Below are positions 36,201 through 46,336 of a stretch of 61,796 nucleotides of DNA, piece by piece. The notes under the pieces are model-generated. The model was not told where the DNA came from, searched no databases, and saw only the letters and a program-made list of their open reading frames with translations. The position numbers were made by a program, and so were the translations under genes. This DNA comes from Myxococcales bacterium. Its GTDB lineage: Bacteria; Myxococcota; B64-G9. Every line of letters starts with the position of its first letter. Within the stretch, counting starts at the first letter, position 1. The stretch covers positions 1 to 61,796 of the forward strand of contig JAAZNF010000010.1 in assembly GCA_012798435.1 (NCBI GenBank). Direction: 5' to 3'.

Positions 36201-37259
36201 ATGAAATGGGCGTTGGCGTTGGGCGCGTCGTGCTGGCTGGGTTGTGGCGGGTCCGAGGTCACCGATCGCTGCCAGAACAAGGTGTGCGACGAGCCCCCCG
36301 CGGACTTCTGCCGCAACGAGAGCGTGCTGGCCGAGTACGCCGGCACCGGGACCTGCGACCCCAAGACCGGTGAGTGCCAGTACCAGAGTACGGACCGCAC
36401 CTGCGCCCAGGGCTGCGCGGACGGTGCCTGCCGCGGCGAGAGCCAGACCGTCTTCGGCTACATCGCCATCTTCGAGGCCGAGGTGATGTGGTTCGCCGGC
36501 TCCGACTGGTTCAAAGGGGTCGGCGCCTACTTCGCCGACCAGCCTTCGTACTACCGCTACCTCCCCCACCAGCTCGAGTGGTTCTGCACCGAGGCGGCTT
36601 CAGCCGGGTCTTGCCGGCTGTACTCTCCCTGCGCCCGGGTCGTGGTGCGCTACGACCAGTGCGACCCGCGCTGCGGCGAAGACCAGTGGTGCGATAACCA
36701 GAGCGCGACCTGCCAGCCACTGCCGCGGCACTACGACGTGGGCGAAATCTCCGTCTCGGGCACGCACGCGGCGATCTCGCTGCCGCCCGATGCCATGGAT
36801 CGGTACGCGCTGGCCTCGCCTCCGGCGGACCTGTTCGACGCCGGGGCCACCATCCAGGCCAGCGCACCGGGCGGGGCGCTCGGGGCCATCTCGCTCTCGG
36901 CCCCGGGGGTGGCGCCGCTCTCGGCCGACGCGCAGGTCGAGCTCCTGGCGGGCAGCGCGGCCCGCTTCCGCTGGCAGAGCACTGGCGACGGGAGCCGGGT
37001 GCGGCTCATCCTCCTCGGCGGCCTCCACGACCCCGCGCCACCGGTGGGGATCTCGTGCGACGCCGAGGATTCGGCCGGCGAGCTGGAGATCCCGGCCGCG
37101 CTGGTGGACGGCTTCCGGCAGCGCACCCTGGTCATCCAGAAGCCCTCCTACGCCATGCGCTACCAGCGCGCCGCCCAGACCGCGGGCGCTGGGGAGATCG
37201 AATTGATGGTCGGCTCGGTGAAAGACGTGCATGTGTGCCTCTCCGCAGGCTGCCGCTAG
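36201..37259 (+). CDS. Predicted lipoprotein with Cys-rich N-terminal module
   Basis: Protein of 352 residues with GGAGGATGGGCC before the ATG. A short signal peptide has the lipobox WLGC (Cys15). Residues 20-78 are a cysteine module (VCDEPPADFC, GTCDPKTGECQY, CAQGCADGACRG) of a type common in secreted proteins of Myxococcota-like genomes. A second Cys cluster follows (about 130-175), then a beta-rich C-terminal domain of about 175 residues that ends in a CLSAGCR tail. No enzymatic motif. It precedes the porin gene by about 58 bases on the same strand. Confidence 0.8.
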   Translation: MKWALALGASCWLGCGGSEVTDRCQNKVCDEPPADFCRNESVLAEYAGTGTCDPKTGECQYQSTDRTCAQGCADGACRGESQTVFGYIAIFEAEVMWFAGSDWFKGVGAYFADQPSYYRYLPHQLEWFCTEAASAGSCRLYSPCARVVVRYDQCDPRCGEDQWCDNQSATCQPLPRHYDVGEISVSGTHAAISLPPDAMDRYALASPPADLFDAGATIQASAPGGALGAISLSAPGVAPLSADAQVELLAGSAARFRWQSTGDGSRVRLILLGGLHDPAPPVGISCDAEDSAGELEIPAALVDGFRQRTLVIQKPSYAMRYQRAAQTAGAGEIELMVGSVKDVHVCLSAGCR

Positions 37260-37317
37260 GATCCTCACCGCGCGCACGCGAGGCCGCGGCCAGCGGCCAC
37301 GTCAGATGGGAGGAATC

Positions 37318-38478
37318 TTGAACCGTCTGCTGGCACTCGTAACCACCGTGATGTCGCTCGCGCCAGCCCCCGCCGAGGCCGGCGAGGTGAGGGTGCGCGG
37401 CAAGCTCCAGACCCGCCTGGAGCTCATCGACCAGTCCACCCTGGATCGCGACCGCGCCGGCTGGACGCACTACCTGGACATCCCGCGGGCCCGGCTGGAC
37501 GTGCGCTGGGATCCTTCCAATCGCCTGCGCCTGGTGTTCGAGCTGGACGCGGCGGACGGCTTTTTGGCCGCGGGCAACGGCGGAAACGGCGGCTTCGCCA
37601 TCGACCAGATGCTCAAGGACTGCTACGGCGAGTTCCGCCTGGGGAAGAAGTTCTTCCTGCGAGCGGGGCACTTCAAGAAGCCGTTCTCGCGCCTGCGCCT
37701 CCGCTCGCCCTGGGATCTGCTCGTCCCCGAGCGCGGCCTGCTCGATCAGACCTTCGTGGGCAACCTCCACCTCGGCGACCTGGCCGGCAGCGGAAGCTTG
37801 CAACACGCCGGCGGCTACGGCGACCGGGACCTCGGCGTCATGGCCGGCGGGCGGCTGAAGTCGCTCATGGATCTGCGCTGGTCGCTGGGGTACTTCAACG
37901 CGCTCGACTTCCTGTCGGGCCGAGAGAGCGGCCACCGCGACGTGGTGGCCAGGCTCGAGATCCGGCCCATCCGCTGGCTGAGCCTGGCCCTGAGCGCGAG
38001 CGCCAAGCGCTTCTCCGTAGCGGCCAGCCGGCAGGACTTCTGGGTGGCCATGCTGGGCGCCGACGCCGAGATCAGCGCGGGCGGTTTCACCTTGCAGCTC
38101 GAGGCGGGCTACGGGGACAACCCGGTGCTGTACAACCGCGCCCCGGCGGGCCAGGCCGACTTCCACCTGGGGGGTGGCAAGTTCGTGGGCGGCCACGCCA
38201 CCGTCGCCTACCGGATCGAGATCGGTCCGGATCTCTGGCTCACCCCGGCCGTGATGGGCGAGGTCCTGGAACCCACCACTGCCGTCAGCGGCGAGGGGTA
38301 CCGGCTGGCGGCGGCGCTGAACCTGGACTTCGCCGCCGGCCCGCGCCTGGTCCTCTACGGCGAGACCACGCTGGGGGACCCGCGCAGCGTGTCCTACGCC
38401 GATCACTCCACCGAGGCGCAAGAGGAGCCGCTGTACTTTCCGACCCGGGCGGGGCTCCAGCTCAACCTGATCTTCTGA
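37318..38478 (+). CDS. Outer-membrane porin, OprO/OprP-like
   Basis: Predicted beta-barrel of 386 residues. I chose TTG 37318 because GGGAGGAATC stands right before it and the product then begins with a clean signal peptide (MNRLLALVTTVMSLAPAPAEA). An ATG at 37306 would put the Shine-Dalgarno inside the gene. Amphipathic strands alternate through the protein, which ends LQLNLIF with a C-terminal Phe as needed for BAM recognition. KFFLRAGHFKKPFSRLRL and RARLDVRWDPS are typical of phosphate- or pyrophosphate-selective porins; selectivity itself cannot be read. It is followed by the CotH/VTC operon, which is of interest if polyphosphate is the common theme. Confidence 0.82.
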   Translation: MNRLLALVTTVMSLAPAPAEAGEVRVRGKLQTRLELIDQSTLDRDRAGWTHYLDIPRARLDVRWDPSNRLRLVFELDAADGFLAAGNGGNGGFAIDQMLKDCYGEFRLGKKFFLRAGHFKKPFSRLRLRSPWDLLVPERGLLDQTFVGNLHLGDLAGSGSLQHAGGYGDRDLGVMAGGRLKSLMDLRWSLGYFNALDFLSGRESGHRDVVARLEIRPIRWLSLALSASAKRFSVAASRQDFWVAMLGADAEISAGGFTLQLEAGYGDNPVLYNRAPAGQADFHLGGGKFVGGHATVAYRIEIGPDLWLTPAVMGEVLEPTTAVSGEGYRLAAALNLDFAAGPRLVLYGETTLGDPRSVSYADHSTEAQEEPLYFPTRAGLQLNLIF

Positions 38479-38694
38479 GGTGGTAGTGAACCCCTCTGCA
38501 ACACCCTTTCGGCACGTCCCCACCACTTTCGGCGCGGCCGGCCGCGGGGCCACGGGAGCCAGCGCGGGCGGGCGCGCGTTCTGTGGTATGGCGTTGGACC
38601 ACTTTGGGGGTTTTTCGCCTGTCCACCACCGAGCACTGGCGGACGTCGAACGCGCCGGCATGTCTCCTTGGCGCTGGCGTGAGAAATCATCGTG

Positions 38695-41472
38695 ATGCTG
38701 CGCCGCGTGTACCGAATGCGCCCGCTGTCGGCGCTGCTCATCTGCCTGCCGGGGGTGCTGTTCGCCCTGTGGTACGCCTGGCGCGCCCACGCCTCCCTGA
38801 GCGCCTTCCGCGCGCTGGTGCCAGGTCCCGCGCCTGGTATCGAGGACTTTCAGCTATGGCTGCACGACACCCTGCGCGCCGACGTGCGCCGCCTGTTGCA
38901 GCCCGACCCACCGGAGCCGCCCCGGTTGCCCCAAATCCATTTGCTGTTCGACAACGCCGAGCTGGACCGACTGGAGGCGTCGCTGGCCGTCCCCCGGGGC
39001 CGTCCCTACGTGTCGGCCCTCCTCGAACACGACGGCCAGCGCCACCCGGTGATGGTGCGCGCGCGCGGCGAGCGCGGCTTCCGCCTCAACCCCAAGCGGC
39101 CGGTGAAGGTGCAGCTCGAGCGCGGCCAGCTCGTTTTGGGATGTCGGGTGTTCAGCCTCGTGGCCGAGTCGTCGCCCCGCCTGGGCGCCGAGGAGGTGGC
39201 GCAGGACCTGGCGGCCTCGCTGGGGCTGCTCACCGTGCGCCATGCCTTCGTGCGGGTGCGGCACAACGGCGCGGACCGGGGGGTGATGCGCCTCACCCCG
39301 CAGGTCGGCGAGGAGCTGCTGCGCGCGAGCGACCGCTACCCGGGGAGTCTGTACTCCGGCAACCTCGATCCCGACGACCCGCGAGATCTGTGGCGCGAGA
39401 GCGGCGCCTGGAAGAAGGTCGTCTGGCGCGTCCCCGAGGAGCAGAAGGACAAGAGCGAACTCGAGCACCTGCTCGATCGTGTGGCGCGCGCCAGCCACCG
39501 CGAGTTCGCCGCCTTCGCCCGCCGGGAGCTCGACCTCGAGCGCTTCGCCGCCCTGGAGGCGCTGGAGATGGCCCTCGGCATCCCCAACCGGGACGCCCGG
39601 CGCAACCACAAGCTCTACTTTGATCCCTTTCGCGGCCGGTTCGAGCCCGTGGCCAGCGCGTTGCGGGGCTTCCAGCGCCCGAGCGGGCGGGTGTCCCCGG
39701 CTGATCCGCTGCGGCTGCGGCTTGCGCTGCTCCCGGAGTACAACGAGCTGCGCGGCCGCATCCTGTGGCGGCTGCTCTCGGGGCCAGCCAGCGTAAGCGA
39801 GGTGCGCCGCCGCTGGACGGAAAAGGTGACCAGCCTGCTCCCCGATCTCCTCTCCGACCCGGTGTGGCGCGCCTCCGACCAGTTGCCGCCGCTCCCCGGC
39901 GGGACCGACAAGATCCTGCGCCCCATGGACGTGTACCGACTGGGGCTGGCCCTCGACAACGCCCTGGTGACGCTGGCCGAGCGCCACGCCACGCTCGTCG
40001 CCGAGCTCTCGGTGAACCCCTTGTCCCTGGAACCGCCCGGGCCGCTGCAAGCCGGCCGCTTCCCGGTGCGCCTGTGGGTGGAGGGGCCGGCAGGGATCGA
40101 GCTGCGCTCGTTTTCCGCCGAGTGGCCCGACGGTTGTGCCGGACGCATGCAGGTGTGGTACCGGGGGCGCCCGCTCGGGCCCGAGGCCGCCGGCGGCGAC
40201 TTTCTGCTGGATGAGCCGCTCACGCTCCTGCCGGGCGCCGAGTTCGCCCAGCGCCGGGGCGCACCGGCCGATGCGTCGGGGCTGATCCCCCGCCCCCGGC
40301 CCGCCGAGTACGACTTCGAGGTGCGCGCGGACTGCCTCCCGGCCAGGCTGTGGGCCGAGGGCCGGCATGGATTCACCCAGGGCCGGATCCGCTCCCGCGA
40401 GCATGCGGCGGTAGCGCCACTCTCCTGGGCCCAGGTGGATGATGTCCCCCGCTTCGCCGCCGGAACGTCCTCGGTCCACCCGGCCGCGCTGACCCTCCCC
40501 GCGGCCGAGACGGTGTCGCTGGGCCCGGGCGTGGTGGAGCTGCCCGAGGGCAAGGTGTTCGAACCGCACCAGCGCGTCACCATCGCGCCCGGCACCACGC
40601 TGCGTCTGGGGCGCGAGGCGTCGCTGGTGTTTTTGGGCCCGCTCTCCGCCCGCGGCACCCCGTCGCGGCCCATCCGCGTCGAACCGCTCGACGCCTCGCC
40701 GTTCGGCGGGGTGATCGTCCAGGGCCCGGCCGCGGCCGGTTCCCGGCTGGAGCAGGTGCGCATCTCCGGCGGGTCGCGCGCACGGTACAACCTGGGCTAC
40801 TACTCTGGCATGTTGAACGTCCACGACACCCGCGACGTGACGCTGCGCCAGATCGAGATCACCTCCGACCGTGTGGCGCCGGACCTGCTGCACGGGGCCT
40901 ACCTCGAAGCACTCGTCATCGACGGTGGCCGCTTCGCGGGGGCGGCGCGGGACGCCATCGACCTGGAGTTCGTGTCCGGCGAGCTGCGCGGCCTCGACAT
41001 CCGCGACAGCGGCGACGAGTGCCTGGACCTCATGGGCGCCAAGCTCTCCCTGGCCGACAGCCTGCTCGTCGGCTGCGGCGGGAACGCGCTGTCCGCCGGC
41101 GAGAAGAGCCGGGTGCGGGTGCAAGATAGCCTGCTCTCGCGCTCGCGCGTGGGCTTGCTCGCCAAGAACGCCTCGCGGGTAGAGCTTGCGGACAGCCTGA
41201 TTTTCGAAAACCGCACCGGCATCCGCGTGAACCGCCGCGACATTTGGTACACGGGCGCAAGCCGGATCGCCGCCGAGACGCTCTACCTGGTGGGCCACGA
41301 GGAGGAGATCGACCTGGACAAACCCTCGGCCGAGGTGCTGGACCTCGGCCGGGTGGAGCGGCACCTGCCGGCGCACGGGCTGACCCGCCTGCGGTACGAC
41401 GTGCTGGGCCTCGGGTCGTGGAACGAACTTCCCGCCCGTCTGGGGAACGCCGGTCCGGGAGGCGCGCCATGA
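38695..41472 (+). CDS. CotH-like protein (probable pseudokinase) with C-terminal parallel beta-helix
   Basis: Protein of 925 residues from ATG 38695 (GTG 38692 adds one). One N-terminal membrane helix (about 9-27). A CotH-type kinase fold covers about 75-460: VRARGERGFRLNPKRPVKVQL corresponds to the ATP-Lys segment, and PNRDARRNHKLYFDP to the catalytic-loop region. The following segment, in active CotH a W-D-x-D motif that binds metal, here reads RFEPVASALRGF with no Asp, so catalysis is doubtful. About 590-900 is a right-handed beta-helix-like repeat region (LSLADSLLVGCGG, VRVQDSLLSRS, VELADSLIFENR). It overlaps the next gene as ATGA. Confidence 0.82.
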   Translation: MLRRVYRMRPLSALLICLPGVLFALWYAWRAHASLSAFRALVPGPAPGIEDFQLWLHDTLRADVRRLLQPDPPEPPRLPQIHLLFDNAELDRLEASLAVPRGRPYVSALLEHDGQRHPVMVRARGERGFRLNPKRPVKVQLERGQLVLGCRVFSLVAESSPRLGAEEVAQDLAASLGLLTVRHAFVRVRHNGADRGVMRLTPQVGEELLRASDRYPGSLYSGNLDPDDPRDLWRESGAWKKVVWRVPEEQKDKSELEHLLDRVARASHREFAAFARRELDLERFAALEALEMALGIPNRDARRNHKLYFDPFRGRFEPVASALRGFQRPSGRVSPADPLRLRLALLPEYNELRGRILWRLLSGPASVSEVRRRWTEKVTSLLPDLLSDPVWRASDQLPPLPGGTDKILRPMDVYRLGLALDNALVTLAERHATLVAELSVNPLSLEPPGPLQAGRFPVRLWVEGPAGIELRSFSAEWPDGCAGRMQVWYRGRPLGPEAAGGDFLLDEPLTLLPGAEFAQRRGAPADASGLIPRPRPAEYDFEVRADCLPARLWAEGRHGFTQGRIRSREHAAVAPLSWAQVDDVPRFAAGTSSVHPAALTLPAAETVSLGPGVVELPEGKVFEPHQRVTIAPGTTLRLGREASLVFLGPLSARGTPSRPIRVEPLDASPFGGVIVQGPAAAGSRLEQVRISGGSRARYNLGYYSGMLNVHDTRDVTLRQIEITSDRVAPDLLHGAYLEALVIDGGRFAGAARDAIDLEFVSGELRGLDIRDSGDECLDLMGAKLSLADSLLVGCGGNALSAGEKSRVRVQDSLLSRSRVGLLAKNASRVELADSLIFENRTGIRVNRRDIWYTGASRIAAETLYLVGHEEEIDLDKPSAEVLDLGRVERHLPAHGLTRLRYDVLGLGSWNELPARLGNAGPGGAP

Positions 41473-42029
41473 AGCCCGCCCCGGGACGCCTGCCCAGCCT
41501 GGGCTTCGTGGCGGTGATCCTGGTCTACGCCGCCGTGGCCGGTTTCTTCGCCTGGGGCGCCGCCACGCCGCCGCTGGACCGGATCTTCCGGGTGACGCAA
41601 GCCCTGCGCGGGAACGACCGGATGCGCTTGGGTGCCGACGTGCGCGCACTCCTGTTGCGGGAACTACGGGACCACCTCGCGCTGCGTCAAGCATTGCTGG
41701 GAGAGGACGGCATCGGCATCCTGAGCGCCCACCAAGGAGGCTGGCTGGCCACGCCGACGGCCTGGCTGCTGCGCTTCCCCGACTCCGAGCGAGTGCGGGC
41801 GCTGCGGCTCGAGGTTCACACCGCGCCCGAGCACCTGCCCTTCACCCTCACCGTGCGCGGCCCGACCTTCCGCAAGCGAACCACCGTGTCCGTGCCGGGC
41901 GCCATCGAGATCGCGCTGCCGCCACCGGGCCCCGAACCGGAGATCATCGAGGTGCGCCTGGGCGGAAAGCGCTTCGCGCCCGACCCGTCGGAGCTGGCGG
42001 TGCGGCTTTCTTTCGAGGAGGGCCCGTGA
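41469..42029 (+). CDS. Small membrane-anchored protein of the CotH-VTC operon
   Basis: Protein of 186 residues whose ATG overlaps the CotH stop and whose stop overlaps the VTC start (GTGA), so it is translated between them. One N-terminal membrane helix (about 11-30) is followed by a helical region with MRLGADVRALLLRELRDHL and a C-terminal beta-rich domain (about 115-184) rich in alternating hydrophobic residues. No family recognised. Given its strict coupling it is likely a structural partner of CotH or the VTC protein at the outer face of the inner membrane. Confidence 0.82.
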   Translation: MKPAPGRLPSLGFVAVILVYAAVAGFFAWGAATPPLDRIFRVTQALRGNDRMRLGADVRALLLRELRDHLALRQALLGEDGIGILSAHQGGWLATPTAWLLRFPDSERVRALRLEVHTAPEHLPFTLTVRGPTFRKRTTVSVPGAIEIALPPPGPEPEIIEVRLGGKRFAPDPSELAVRLSFEEGP

Positions 42030-42826
42030 GCGGCGACACCATCCGGCGCTTCAACCGCTACGAGCTCAAGTACCTGCTGCCGGCCCAGCGGGCGCCAGCG
42101 GTCATGGAGGATCTGGCCTCCATGGTCCGGCCCGACGAGCACGGCGGCGCGCGCGGCTACCGCGTGGTGTCGCTGTACTTCGACAGCCCCGGCCTCGACA
42201 TGTACCGGGCGAAAATCGACGGGCTCAAGTTCCGCCGCAAGCTGCGACTGCGGGTGTATCCCGACGAGCGGGATCGGGTGTCGCGCGGCATGGTGGAGAT
42301 CAAGCAACGCATCAACCGTACGGTGCAGAAGCGGCGCATCGAGCTGCCGCTTGCGACGGCCGAGGCCCTGTGCCGCGGCGAGGCGCCGCCGGATACGCTC
42401 GACGAGCTGGACGAGCAGGTGGTGGGCGAGGTGCGCTACCTGGTGGCCGCCATGCACCTCGGCCCGGCCTGCGTGGTGTCCTACTGGCGGCGGGCATTCG
42501 TGGGCGGGCGTTACGACCTGGGCCTGCGTGTCACCTTCGACACCTTGCTGCGCGCGCGGGTGGCGCCGCTCTCGGTGCGCGCGGGCTGGGGCGGGAGCCT
42601 GTTCCTGCCACCCGACTGGTGCGTCATGGAGGTCAAGGTCAACGACAGCGTGCCCGACTGGGTGGTGTCCTGGCTGGCCCGCCACGACTGCCAGCTGCAC
42701 CGGGTGAGCAAGTACTGCGCCGGCCTGCGTCACGCCCGCCGGCAGCGGATCGAGGTGCTGCCCGGCCCCGGGCGACCCTGGGCGGTACAGGAGAATATCC
42801 TAGGAGGAGCGACATGTCCGAACTGA
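42026..42826 (+). CDS. VTC-domain protein (polyphosphate polymerase-like)
   Basis: Triphosphate-tunnel protein of 266 residues in the VTC family, whose eukaryotic member Vtc4 makes polyphosphate from ATP. The basic tunnel residues are visible: RYELKYLLP, YFDSPGLDMYR, KFRRKLRLRVY, MVEIKQRINRTVQKRR, VSYWRRAFVG, a metal-binding Glu in VMEVKVND and the C-terminal SKYCAGL motif, so it looks catalytically intact. No membrane segment. GTG start with GAGGAGG upstream. Its end overlaps the DUF4956 gene by 13 bases. Product could be polyphosphate or a phosphate chain on another acceptor. Confidence 0.88.
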   Translation: MSGDTIRRFNRYELKYLLPAQRAPAVMEDLASMVRPDEHGGARGYRVVSLYFDSPGLDMYRAKIDGLKFRRKLRLRVYPDERDRVSRGMVEIKQRINRTVQKRRIELPLATAEALCRGEAPPDTLDELDEQVVGEVRYLVAAMHLGPACVVSYWRRAFVGGRYDLGLRVTFDTLLRARVAPLSVRAGWGGSLFLPPDWCVMEVKVNDSVPDWVVSWLARHDCQLHRVSKYCAGLRHARRQRIEVLPGPGRPWAVQENILGGATCPN

Positions 42827-43509
42827 TGCGGGAGCTGGAACGCTTCAAGGATCAGAGTGGCATCTTCTCGCTGATGGACATCGCGCTGGCGCTGCTGCTC
42901 GCCTTCGTCCTCATGCTTTTCATCGCCTGGGTGTACCGCTACACCCACCGCGGGGTGTCCTACTCCCAGTCCTCGGTGCACAACCTGGTGCTGCTGGGGA
43001 CGGTGGTGGCGCTCATCATGCTTATCGTGGGCTCCAACATCGCGCGCGCCTTCGCGCTGATCGGGGCGCTCTCCATCATCCGCTTCCGCAACGCCGTCAA
43101 GGAGCCGCGCGACGTGGGCTTCATCTTCCTGGCGCTGGCGGTGGGCATGGCGGTGGGCACGCGCTTTTACTTGCTGGCGGCCTTCGCCACGGTGATGATC
43201 TCGGCCTTCGTAGTGGTGCTGTACAAGTTCAACCTGTTCGCCAAGGAGGTGCGCGAGCGCATCCTGCGGGTGCAGTTCGCCGCCGCGGCCGACCCCGAGC
43301 GGGAGCTGGCCGAGACCTTCCGCGAGTTCCTCGAGCAGTACGCCGCCATCGCCGCCGAGAGTGTGGCCGGGGGGGAGCTGCAGGAGGTGGTGTTCTCGGT
43401 GGTGCTCAAGCGCCGCGTCAAACCCGAGCAGCTCATCGAGGCGGTGCGAAAGAAGAACGGCGGCCACAAGGTGGCCCTCATCCTGGGCCAACAGGAAGTC
43501 GACATCTGA
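42814..43509 (+). CDS. DUF4956 family membrane protein
   Basis: Protein of 231 residues with TAGGAGGAGCGAC before the ATG, a strong ribosome site that lies inside the VTC gene. Four transmembrane helices (about 25-45, 60-77, 88-110, 115-138) contain the family signature ARAFALIGALSIIRFRNAVKE followed by PRDVGFIFLALAVGMA. A cytoplasmic C-terminal domain of about 80 residues follows. DUF4956 genes are often seen beside VTC-domain and CotH genes. A plausible role is a membrane channel or anchor for the VTC enzyme (inference). Confidence 0.88.
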   Translation: MSELMRELERFKDQSGIFSLMDIALALLLAFVLMLFIAWVYRYTHRGVSYSQSSVHNLVLLGTVVALIMLIVGSNIARAFALIGALSIIRFRNAVKEPRDVGFIFLALAVGMAVGTRFYLLAAFATVMISAFVVVLYKFNLFAKEVRERILRVQFAAAADPERELAETFREFLEQYAAIAAESVAGGELQEVVFSVVLKRRVKPEQLIEAVRKKNGGHKVALILGQQEVDI

Positions 43510-43577: not shown

Positions 43578-44687
43578 TCAGGCGGGCTCGGCCAGGTCGG
43601 ACTCGTGACGGCGGAAGAACTCCACCAATTGCGGCAGGTACGAGGGGAAGGGCGGGCAGGTCACGCCGCTCCCGGCCAGCGCCGACCGCGCGCGCGCATC
43701 GTCGTAGCGCACCCGGTACAGGACGTGCCCCAGCATCGCAAACGGCATGCCCAGGCGTTCCGCCGCCGCCGAGGCGATCTGCCGTAGCGGGGGCAGCATG
43801 AGCAGGCGCACGCTGCGGCGCACCGGCCGGCGCAGGATGGGCCCGGTGAGCCCGAAGGCCCGCAGCGAACGCTCGTAGAACTCGCGGTACGACAGCGGGT
43901 ACGGATCCACCAGGTGGAAGGCGCTGTGCGGCGGGGCGGCCATGAGATGCGTCATGGCTGCGGCCAGGTAGTCCACCGGCACCAGCGGGAAAAACAGGTC
44001 CTCCTCGCGCATGGAGATAAGCGGCAGGCGGGCGGCCAACGGCAACCGGGCCAGGCGCGAGAGCGCCCGGAACAGGTAGTACGCCCCGTCGAGCTTGTCC
44101 GCCTCGCCGGTCTGCGAGTGGCCCACCACCACGCCGGGCCGGAACACCCGCCAGGGCAGGCCGGACTGGCGCACGACCTTCTCCGACTCGAACTTGCTCT
44201 TGCCGTAGGCGTGGAAAAAGCCCTGGCCCCGGTCCAGCTCGTCCTCGCCGAACGTCCCCTCGGCATCGCCGGACACCGCGATGGAGCTCACCAGGTGGAA
44301 GGCGCGCAAGTGATGCAGGCCGGCGGCCAGCTCCAGCACCCGGCGCGTCCCGTCCACGTTGACCGCGCGGGCCTCCTCCTCGCCCATGGACAAGCGGTAG
44401 GCCGCCGCCAGGTGCAGCACCTGGTGCGCCTCGTCCCGCAGCCGGGCGCGGGCGTTCTCGTCGAGGCCGAGATCCGGCCGCGTGACGTCCCCCGCGACAA
44501 TCGTGGGGCGCGCCAGCTCCGGGGGCCAGGCGGCCAGGCGCGCCTCGAGCCGCGACCGCGAAGAGGAGCGGCACAGCAGGATGAGCCGCCGCCCGCGCCG
44601 GGCCAGCGCCTGGGTCACGAACCGCCCGATGAAGCCGCTGCCGCCGGTGACGAACACCGCGCCGTCTGCCGTCGCCTCCACGCTCAC
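43578..44687 (-). CDS. NAD(P)-dependent extended SDR, thioester-reductase/epimerase type
   Basis: Protein of 369 residues starting at a GTG that overlaps the stop of the sugar dehydrogenase gene (GTGA). The Rossmann motif TGGSGFIGRF lies near the N-terminus; the catalytic Ser region is HLVSSIAVSG and the Tyr/Lys pair is in YGKSK. The spacing and sequences NVDGTRRVLELA and FRPGVVVGHSQTGEADKLDG resemble the NAD-binding domain of carboxylate/fatty acyl reductases (NAD_binding_4) more than UDP-glucose epimerases. Substrate unknown; the neighbour suggests cell-envelope sugar or lipid chemistry. Confidence 0.85.
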   Translation of the reverse strand: MSVEATADGAVFVTGGSGFIGRFVTQALARRGRRLILLCRSSSRSRLEARLAAWPPELARPTIVAGDVTRPDLGLDENARARLRDEAHQVLHLAAAYRLSMGEEEARAVNVDGTRRVLELAAGLHHLRAFHLVSSIAVSGDAEGTFGEDELDRGQGFFHAYGKSKFESEKVVRQSGLPWRVFRPGVVVGHSQTGEADKLDGAYYLFRALSRLARLPLAARLPLISMREEDLFFPLVPVDYLAAAMTHLMAAPPHSAFHLVDPYPLSYREFYERSLRAFGLTGPILRRPVRRSVRLLMLPPLRQIASAAAERLGMPFAMLGHVLYRVRYDDARARSALAGSGVTCPPFPSYLPQLVEFFRRHESDLAEPA

Positions 44688-46336
44688 CTCCGCGTTCTCC
44701 TCGCCAGCACCTCGTCCTTGAGGCGCTTGATGTGCCCGCGGCCCAACGCCTTGACCTCGCAGCCAAGCTCGAAGTAGGCGCGGATGTCGTCGTCGCTCAG
44801 GATGCCGAAGCAGTCGATCACCGCCAGCGGCCCGCCGGCCCACTCCACCACCTGCCGCGGCGGAAGCGACAGGTACGGCCTGTGGGGCACCGCCAGGACC
44901 ACCGCCTCCACCCCCGAAAGCGCCCGCGCCAGATCCTTCTGCACTCGCACCTGTTTGAGCTTCTCCTGGTTATGGAAGAAGCGCGCCCAGCTCCAGCCCG
45001 GCTCGGGGTAGTCGTCCTGCAGCTCCAGCTCGTACCAGTGGTCCACGTAGGGATCGTGCACCCGCATCTCGGCGCCCATCTCGGAGAGCTTGCGCAAAAG
45101 GAGCTCCGAGCCGCTGTAGCGGGTGTCGCCCACGTCCTGGCGGTAGCTGGCGCCGCACAAGAGCACCTCGGCTCCGGCGATGTGCCGGCTCATGTTGCGC
45201 AAGGCGTCGCGCACCAGCTCGGCCGCGTGCAGGGCGCGGGTGTCGTTGATGTCCACCGCGGTCGGGGAGATGCGGAACACCCGGTCGCCGTCCTCGAACC
45301 CCAGCAGGTGCTGGTAGGCCCAGTAGCCCAGCCCGGCGTCCTTGGGCAGGCAGTAGCCGCCGATGCCCGGGCCGGGGAAGATGATGTTGTCGTGGGTGGG
45401 CCGCACCCGGATGGCCTGGATCACCTTGACCAGATCCACCCCGTTGCGCTCGGCGAACAGGCTCCATTCGTTGAGGAAGGCCAGGAGGGTGGCCCGGTAG
45501 GAGTTCTCCACGATCTTGGTGGTCTCGCTCTCGATGGGCCGGTCCATCACCGTGAGCGGGAAGCGCTCGGTGTGGATCACCTCGCGCAGGAATTTTTCCA
45601 CCCGGCGGCGCGACTCCGGGTTGCAGCCGGCGCACACCCGCCAGAAGTCGCGGATGGAGGCCACGTACTCCTTGCCGGGCATCACCCGCTCGAAACTGTG
45701 GGCCAGCAGGGGCTCGCTCCGGATGCCGCGGGCGGCGAAGGCGCGCTTCAGCAGCGGCCAGGCCACGAACTCGGTGGTGCCCGGGGCCACCGTGGTCTCG
45801 ATCAGGGTCAGGCACTCGGGGCGGATCTTTTCCCCGATGGTGCGAATGGTGGCCTCCAGCGCGGCCATCTCCACCGTCCCCTCGCGCATGGCCCCCAGGC
45901 GCGGCTTGCGAAAGTCGCACTGCACGTCCACGATGACGCAGTCGGCGAGCGAGAGGCAGTCGGGGTTGAAGGTGGCGGTGAGGGTGCGCTTCTCCAGCAC
46001 CACGCGCCGGATCATGGGGTCGACGTCCGGGTCCTCGGCCTTCACCGGGGAGACGCCGCGGTTGAGCATTGGGATCTTCCAGAAGCTCCGCGTGCTGGGG
46101 CGCTGGCAGCCGATGACGAACTTGCTGCTCTTGCCGGTCTTGGGGTCGACGGTATCGGCCACGATGGCGGCCATCACCGCGCCCACGAAGCCCAGGCCCA
46201 TCACCACCACTATCTCCTGGCCCGCAGCGCGGGCCTCGGCGACGAGCCGCTGCAAACGTTCGAGCTCGGCGGGGTACTCGGACGGGGCCGGCAACGCGAA
46301 GCGCTCGCCGTCGGGACTGGTGGCGTAGTCGCTCAT
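44684..46336 (-). CDS. UDP-glucose/GDP-mannose dehydrogenase family protein
   Basis: NAD-dependent sugar-nucleotide dehydrogenase of 550 residues. An N-terminal Rossmann domain has VVVMGLGFVGAVMA, the central domain has IESETTKIVENSYRATLLAF, and the catalytic Cys lies in GPGIGGYCLPKDAG. The C-terminal UDP-binding domain shows LLCGASYRQDVGDTRYSG. It is longer than usual (about 440), with an extra N-terminal stretch and inserts around residues 65-110. ATG 46336 has AGGAGATACCC upstream. Likely makes a uronic-acid nucleotide for polysaccharide. Confidence 0.9.
   Translation of the reverse strand: MSDYATSPDGERFALPAPSEYPAELERLQRLVAEARAAGQEIVVVMGLGFVGAVMAAIVADTVDPKTGKSSKFVIGCQRPSTRSFWKIPMLNRGVSPVKAEDPDVDPMIRRVVLEKRTLTATFNPDCLSLADCVIVDVQCDFRKPRLGAMREGTVEMAALEATIRTIGEKIRPECLTLIETTVAPGTTEFVAWPLLKRAFAARGIRSEPLLAHSFERVMPGKEYVASIRDFWRVCAGCNPESRRRVEKFLREVIHTERFPLTVMDRPIESETTKIVENSYRATLLAFLNEWSLFAERNGVDLVKVIQAIRVRPTHDNIIFPGPGIGGYCLPKDAGLGYWAYQHLLGFEDGDRVFRISPTAVDINDTRALHAAELVRDALRNMSRHIAGAEVLLCGASYRQDVGDTRYSGSELLLRKLSEMGAEMRVHDPYVDHWYELELQDDYPEPGWSWARFFHNQEKLKQVRVQKDLARALSGVEAVVLAVPHRPYLSLPPRQVVEWAGGPLAVIDCFGILSDDDIRAYFELGCEVKALGRGHIKRLKDEVLARRTRR

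Follow-up and report, generated by a model that had tools for sequence, protein, structure and literature searches.

Gene organization of the locus

The window, a stretch of 61,796 nucleotides from a Myxococcales bacterium (JAAZNF010000010.1, assembly GCA_012798435.1), carries a compact operon of four genes, which encode a CotH-family protein (pseudo-CotH), a small membrane-anchored protein, a VTC-type triphosphate tunnel enzyme and a DUF4956 membrane protein (Table 1). The genes are joined by overlaps of ATGA (CotH/small protein), GTGA (small protein/VTC) and 13 bases (VTC/DUF4956), at the positions reported in a first-pass annotation of this DNA. The start of pseudo-CotH is the ATG at 38695, with a GTG at 38692 as a possible alternative. 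Since the same operon, with the same lost Asp in CotH, is present in ten other Myxococcota loci, the arrangement goes beyond chance. The whole genome contains six CotH genes, one VTC gene and one DUF4956 gene; the latter two are those in the window, and the operon itself has no second CotH.

The porin gene directly upstream is probably part of the system. Homologs of this Porin_O_P-like protein adjoin VTC in relatives of two arrangements, some of the matches being weak and the porins of L091 and L067 having no Pfam confirmation. Just downstream of the operon, a convergent NAD-dependent reductase/epimerase-like gene and a UDP-glucose/GDP-mannose dehydrogenase gene (43578-46336, minus strand) are possible surface-sugar genes.

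Table 1. Position of the operon genes, their parts and the upstream genes in the window
Feature	Position	Strand	Evidence or remark
Cys-rich lipoprotein-like gene	36201..37259	+	Upstream of operon; membership uncertain
Porin_O_P-like outer-membrane porin	37306..38478	+	Pfam E=9.5e-6; directly upstream of operon
Pseudo-CotH	38695..41472	+	ORF, Pfam CotH, AF2 model, Foldseek to 5jda, hydropathy
Pseudo-CotH, N-terminal membrane anchor	about residues 8-31		Hydropathy
Pseudo-CotH, CotH-fold domain	about residues 76-440		Followed by beta-sandwich linker
Pseudo-CotH, retained catalytic-loop segment Asp300-Ala-Arg-Arg-Asn304	39592..39606	+	Family alignment
Pseudo-CotH, codon GCG (Ala322) at the place of the metal-binding Asp	39658..39660	+	Equivalent of B. 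subtilis D251
Pseudo-CotH, parallel beta-helix	40495..41394, about residues 601-900	+	AF2 model, Foldseek, column conservation
Small membrane-anchored protein	41469..42029	+	ORF, hydropathy; extracytoplasmic beta-rich domain
VTC-type triphosphate tunnel enzyme	42026..42826	+	Pfam PF09359, E=1.3e-37
DUF4956 membrane protein	42814..43509	+	Pfam PF16316, E=1.3e-16; hydropathy

Fold and catalytic residues of pseudo-CotH

Pseudo-CotH is a member of the CotH family (PF08757) by descent, as found with Pfam, a profile of its clade and Foldseek. The Pfam match (E=1.2e-8) is above the cut-off and covers only the first 204 of the 322 profile positions, while the clade profile matches 5jd9 with E=1.4e-27. 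The AlphaFold (AF2) model, built on a shallow alignment of 11 sequences, has a mean pLDDT of 81.9 and a pTM of 0.79, and its top Foldseek match is the B. cereus CotH 5jda (TM 0.82 by target length, rmsd 3.4), followed by beta-helices of the glycan enzymes GH87, AlgG, AlgE4 and PL6. The first-pass annotation had proposed that CotH is fused to a parallel beta-helix and that a predicted structure be compared with a solved CotH: both the fusion and the retention of the CotH fold are backed by these results. The likeness to the glycan-handling beta-helices of GH87, AlgG and PL6 makes binding of a polymer or glycan by this part of the modeled protein plausible.

The metal-Asp segment of the window protein reads EPVASALRGF, so that the ASALRGF noticed earlier at this motif was seen again, with alanine as residue 322. 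The Trp preceding the lost Asp is replaced by Ser, the HWH loop common to its relatives reads GFR, and Asp392, also common to them, is missing. The alignment combined CotHs of Myxococcota relatives, mostly metagenome assemblies and some of them fragmented, with others taken from VTC/DUF4956 loci across many phyla. At the metal position, Asp is present in 66 of the 70 ordinary CotHs with a residue there and in 7/7 sister beta-helix fusions of other lineages (Planctomycetota, Pseudomonadota, Desulfocapsaceae and other deltaproteobacterial genomes), but in none of 11 CotH/beta-helix fusions of the clade to which the window copy belongs, where Ser, Asn or Ala is found. This clade is monophyletic (100/100), with the Asp-keeping fusions as its sister (96/90). 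The survey of VTC-DUF4956 loci for CotH with and without the Asp motif, suggested from one sequence, thus places the loss across a Myxococcota clade and not in one genome. One further, truncated member (L072:3-2345) carries GAC, and so Asp, at this site, in EPIARDFRAF with Arg for the preceding Trp, either by reversion or by retention; with this member counted, Asn occurs there in three members and Asp in one.

A second acid has disappeared from the same clade: Glu at position 202 is found in 59/73 ordinary CotHs and in 6/7 sister fusions, but only in 1/11 clade members. The remaining motifs, described earlier as an ATP-Lys region and an N-R-D...H region, are indeed kept, with the Lys-containing loop, Asn304 and Asp300 all retained and the 'H' being His305, after Asn304. 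Asp300 is present in 10/11 members in a second alignment, and since an indel shifts the HMM columns for the catalytic Asp in the beta-helix fusions, the register of Asp300 and Asn304 is that of the family alignment, not of a structure. Compared with the CotH spore-coat kinase (5jda/5jd9), the window protein therefore shares the fold, the Lys loop and the Asp (D228) and Asn of the catalytic loop, but lacks the metal Asp and the conserved Glu, and it has a membrane anchor, a beta-helix fusion and a VTC-DUF4956 operon. In B. subtilis CotH, the D228Q and D251A variants are both catalytically inactive (PMC7821199), and in the 5jd9 sequence the two Asps stand 23 residues apart, which fits D228 and D251 being the positions discussed here.

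Judged from these residues, the window CotH is very probably kinase-dead, and so is its clade. We also considered that the clade is still enzymatic, through a substitute metal ligand or another chemistry (AMPylation, metal-independent nucleotide binding), like atypical kinases once thought dead. The retained Lys loop, Asp300 and Asn304 would be expected of such an enzyme, the metal position is Asn in three members and Asp in one, and acids at residues 291 and 384 were gained in the clade and are universal there; distant acids such as these might conceivably take over from the missing acid. However, no clade-wide acid was found in the alignment at or beside the lost metal position, two family-conserved acids (202 and 322) were lost together, the window copy is also without the HWH loop and Asp392, and the D251A change inactivates CotH. 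We consider continued catalysis unlikely. The first-pass impression that this CotH looks catalytically dead is accordingly strengthened by the clade-wide loss of the metal Asp and of Glu202, and is weakened to the extent that residue 291 or 384 may supply a ligand.

Neither decay nor sequencing error is accepted as an explanation for the missing Asp, because the codons are clean in 11 loci and the reading frames are open, with the exception of one stop reported in G004. The constraint on the protein was followed in columns with at least 90% conservation among ten relatives. Of these, the window copy keeps 63/79 in the CotH domain and 44/47 in the beta-helix, a difference that would suit a CotH domain reduced to a passive relic under relaxed constraint, in which only the anchor and a polymer-binding or -modifying beta-helix matter. 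Against this, the other clade members keep 85-96% of the conserved CotH-domain columns, the domain is well folded in the AF2 model and the loss is confined to specific acids, and we find the relic explanation improbable. The fold match to a solved CotH and the 79 conserved domain columns instead argue for a conserved pseudokinase clade and not for a decayed gene; by these columns, the window copy is the most altered member of a clade that appears to be maintained.

Two other CotH groups were observed. A separate CotH/beta-helix fusion family (L081:10103-12652 and L082:7361-10024), with the gene order DUF4956-CotH-VTC, has degenerate catalytic residues in a pattern unlike that of the window's clade. 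A second CotH group (L090, L094, and L099 and L102 on contigs C36 and C100 of the window's own genome) has PWGxD instead of PWDxD, possibly another non-canonical metal site.

Topology of the operon products and related gene sets

The VTC protein, described in the first-pass annotation as an intact-looking tunnel enzyme, keeps its tunnel Lys, Arg and Glu residues. Invariant in an alignment with its relatives are E13, K15, R70, K72, R74, R76, E91, K93, R155, R168, E202, K204, S228 and K229. The family profile matches yeast Vtc4 (3g3q, E=5.5e-14), with which the window protein shares the domain and the tunnel residues, but it has no SPX or membrane domain. Hydropathy revealed no hydrophobic membrane segment or export signal in VTC, which is predicted to be cytosolic, and four hydrophobic segments followed by a soluble C-terminal region in DUF4956, which may be the membrane partner of VTC. 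A single hydrophobic segment is found at the N-terminus of each of pseudo-CotH and the small protein, and the four Arg ahead of that of pseudo-CotH place the bulk of this protein outside the cytoplasm. The small protein is found in the Myxococcota pseudo-CotH operons with enough contig. It has no Pfam family, and a fold could not be assigned, since Foldseek of its model gave only chance matches (TM about 0.2). A further kind of Myxococcota locus has a gene for a thymidylate-kinase-like protein (L091:10242-11951; PF02223, 5e-27) between VTC and DUF4956.

This topology bears on the model put forward in the first-pass annotation, in which a surface polymer is held by the beta-helix of CotH and receives phosphate chains that VTC builds or attaches, with DUF4956 as the membrane port. 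The tight operon, a beta-helix of the glycan-handling type and the Pel-linked CotH-VTC-DUF4956 sets (PMC7112168, PMC12345266) agree with it. However, with VTC in the cytosol without an export signal and with CotH and the small protein outside, VTC could add chains to a polymer bound by the beta-helix only after prior export of polyphosphate, and a link of VTC products to a glycan would be hypothetical. Direct building is not borne out in the form proposed, and the model as a whole seems doubtful to us.

In Gram-positives, pel loci come with genes of the CotH, VTC-type and DUF4956 families (PMC7112168). When CotH was deleted in S. intermedius, Pel and aggregation both fell; loss of DUF4956 lowered aggregation and raised Pel, and no effect was reported for deletion of the VTC gene (PMC12345266). 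The CotH and DUF4956 results agree with the scaffold or regulator reading set out below, and the VTC result speaks against it. The same three families thus form one operon in both cases, and the Gram-positive set is tied to a surface polymer; the Myxococcota set differs in its extra small anchored protein and porin, in the beta-helix fusion and in the lost metal site of CotH. Pfam recognized no pel genes among the immediate neighbors in the window. The gene order CotH-polyphosphate polymerase-DUF4956 has been stated to be absent outside pel loci (PMC12345266); in contrast, we found the order CotH-VTC-DUF4956 in many phyla, a comparison made on gene order alone. No description of a CotH pseudokinase was found in a search of the open-access literature. 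While CotH-VTC-DUF4956 sets beside Pel loci are already published, the dead clade and its links to the porin and to the PPDK_N proteins presented below appear to be new.

Kinase-competent CotH, PPDK_N proteins and proposed role

A kinase-competent CotH lies upstream of pseudo-CotH, in the same cluster, in three lineages (L063, L066 and L067/L105). At least one other CotH is present in 9/10 pseudo-CotH genomes searched, as well as in the window's own genome; none was found in the remaining one (G042, 86% complete). The clusters of L066, L067 and L068 also encode a secreted lipoprotein-like PPDK_N protein (dikinase ATP-grasp), and in the window's own genome a PPDK_N lipoprotein, a porin and a kinase-competent CotH form a trio on contig C53 (L101, 2577-7555). 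Proximity was counted across the phylum with a distance limit of 10 kb: PPDK_N proteins of this type were near VTC in 11 of 69 cases (0.24 expected) and near a non-pseudo CotH in 10 of 23 (0.28 expected), counts that are not independent draws because the genomes are related. The window gene at 36201 was discarded as a PPDK_N homolog, as it has only a 57-aa Cys-rich stretch in common with the C53 PPDK_N lipoprotein. Pairs of PPDK_N and CotH genes recur in G001, G003, G004, G006, G007 and G008. The competent CotH, the PPDK_N lipoprotein and the porin accompanying this system are additions to the first-pass annotation.

From the gene order, the acid loss, the fold, the hydropathy-based topology, the VTC residues and these associations, we infer all function, and our preferred reading has a probability of about 0.5: pseudo-CotH would be a conserved pseudokinase of the CotH family, held in the inner membrane by its anchor with its bulk in the periplasm, and would serve an envelope phosphate module as scaffold or regulator, phosphotransfer being performed by a separate CotH. 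Cytosolic VTC would polymerize phosphate from ATP, presumably yielding polyphosphate, and DUF4956 would be its membrane partner and might serve for export. Pseudo-CotH, having presumably lost phosphotransfer (positions 322 and 202) but not its fold, would together with the small anchored protein hold a ligand, be it nucleotide, phosphate or polymer, at the outer face, and its beta-helix may bind glycan and so tie the module to a surface polymer. The real phosphotransfer would be performed by the separate kinase-competent CotH and possibly also by the secreted PPDK_N protein. The ATP- or phosphate-binding scaffold suggested in the earlier annotation is reasonable, since the fold persists along with the other ATP-site motifs, though the scaffold role itself goes a step beyond these motifs. 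A comparison in mode of work only is offered by the Fam20A/Fam20C pair: Fam20A is described as a secretory pseudokinase that activates its active paralog (PMC5413348, PMC4421793), and pseudo-CotH would likewise be an extracytoplasmic pseudokinase of kinase fold with an active paralog at hand.

The module might, more speculatively, be the core of a phosphoryl supply for the envelope, in which VTC and DUF4956 export polyphosphate to feed extracytoplasmic ATP-using proteins (the competent CotH and PPDK_N), with pseudo-CotH in control and the porin as the exit through the outer membrane. We hold this to be a long shot, but if true it would explain the source of the phosphate donor used by secreted bacterial kinases. 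Through the repeated association of the system with a competent CotH, a secreted ATP-grasp protein and a Porin_O_P-like porin, this question can be tested directly. A clade that has given up the kinase site and still keeps the protein and its operon also provides a natural experiment for telling the scaffold role of CotH apart from its catalytic role. Upstream of the competent CotH and pseudo-CotH of L063, an arylsulfotransferase-like lipoprotein is encoded (1272-2819).
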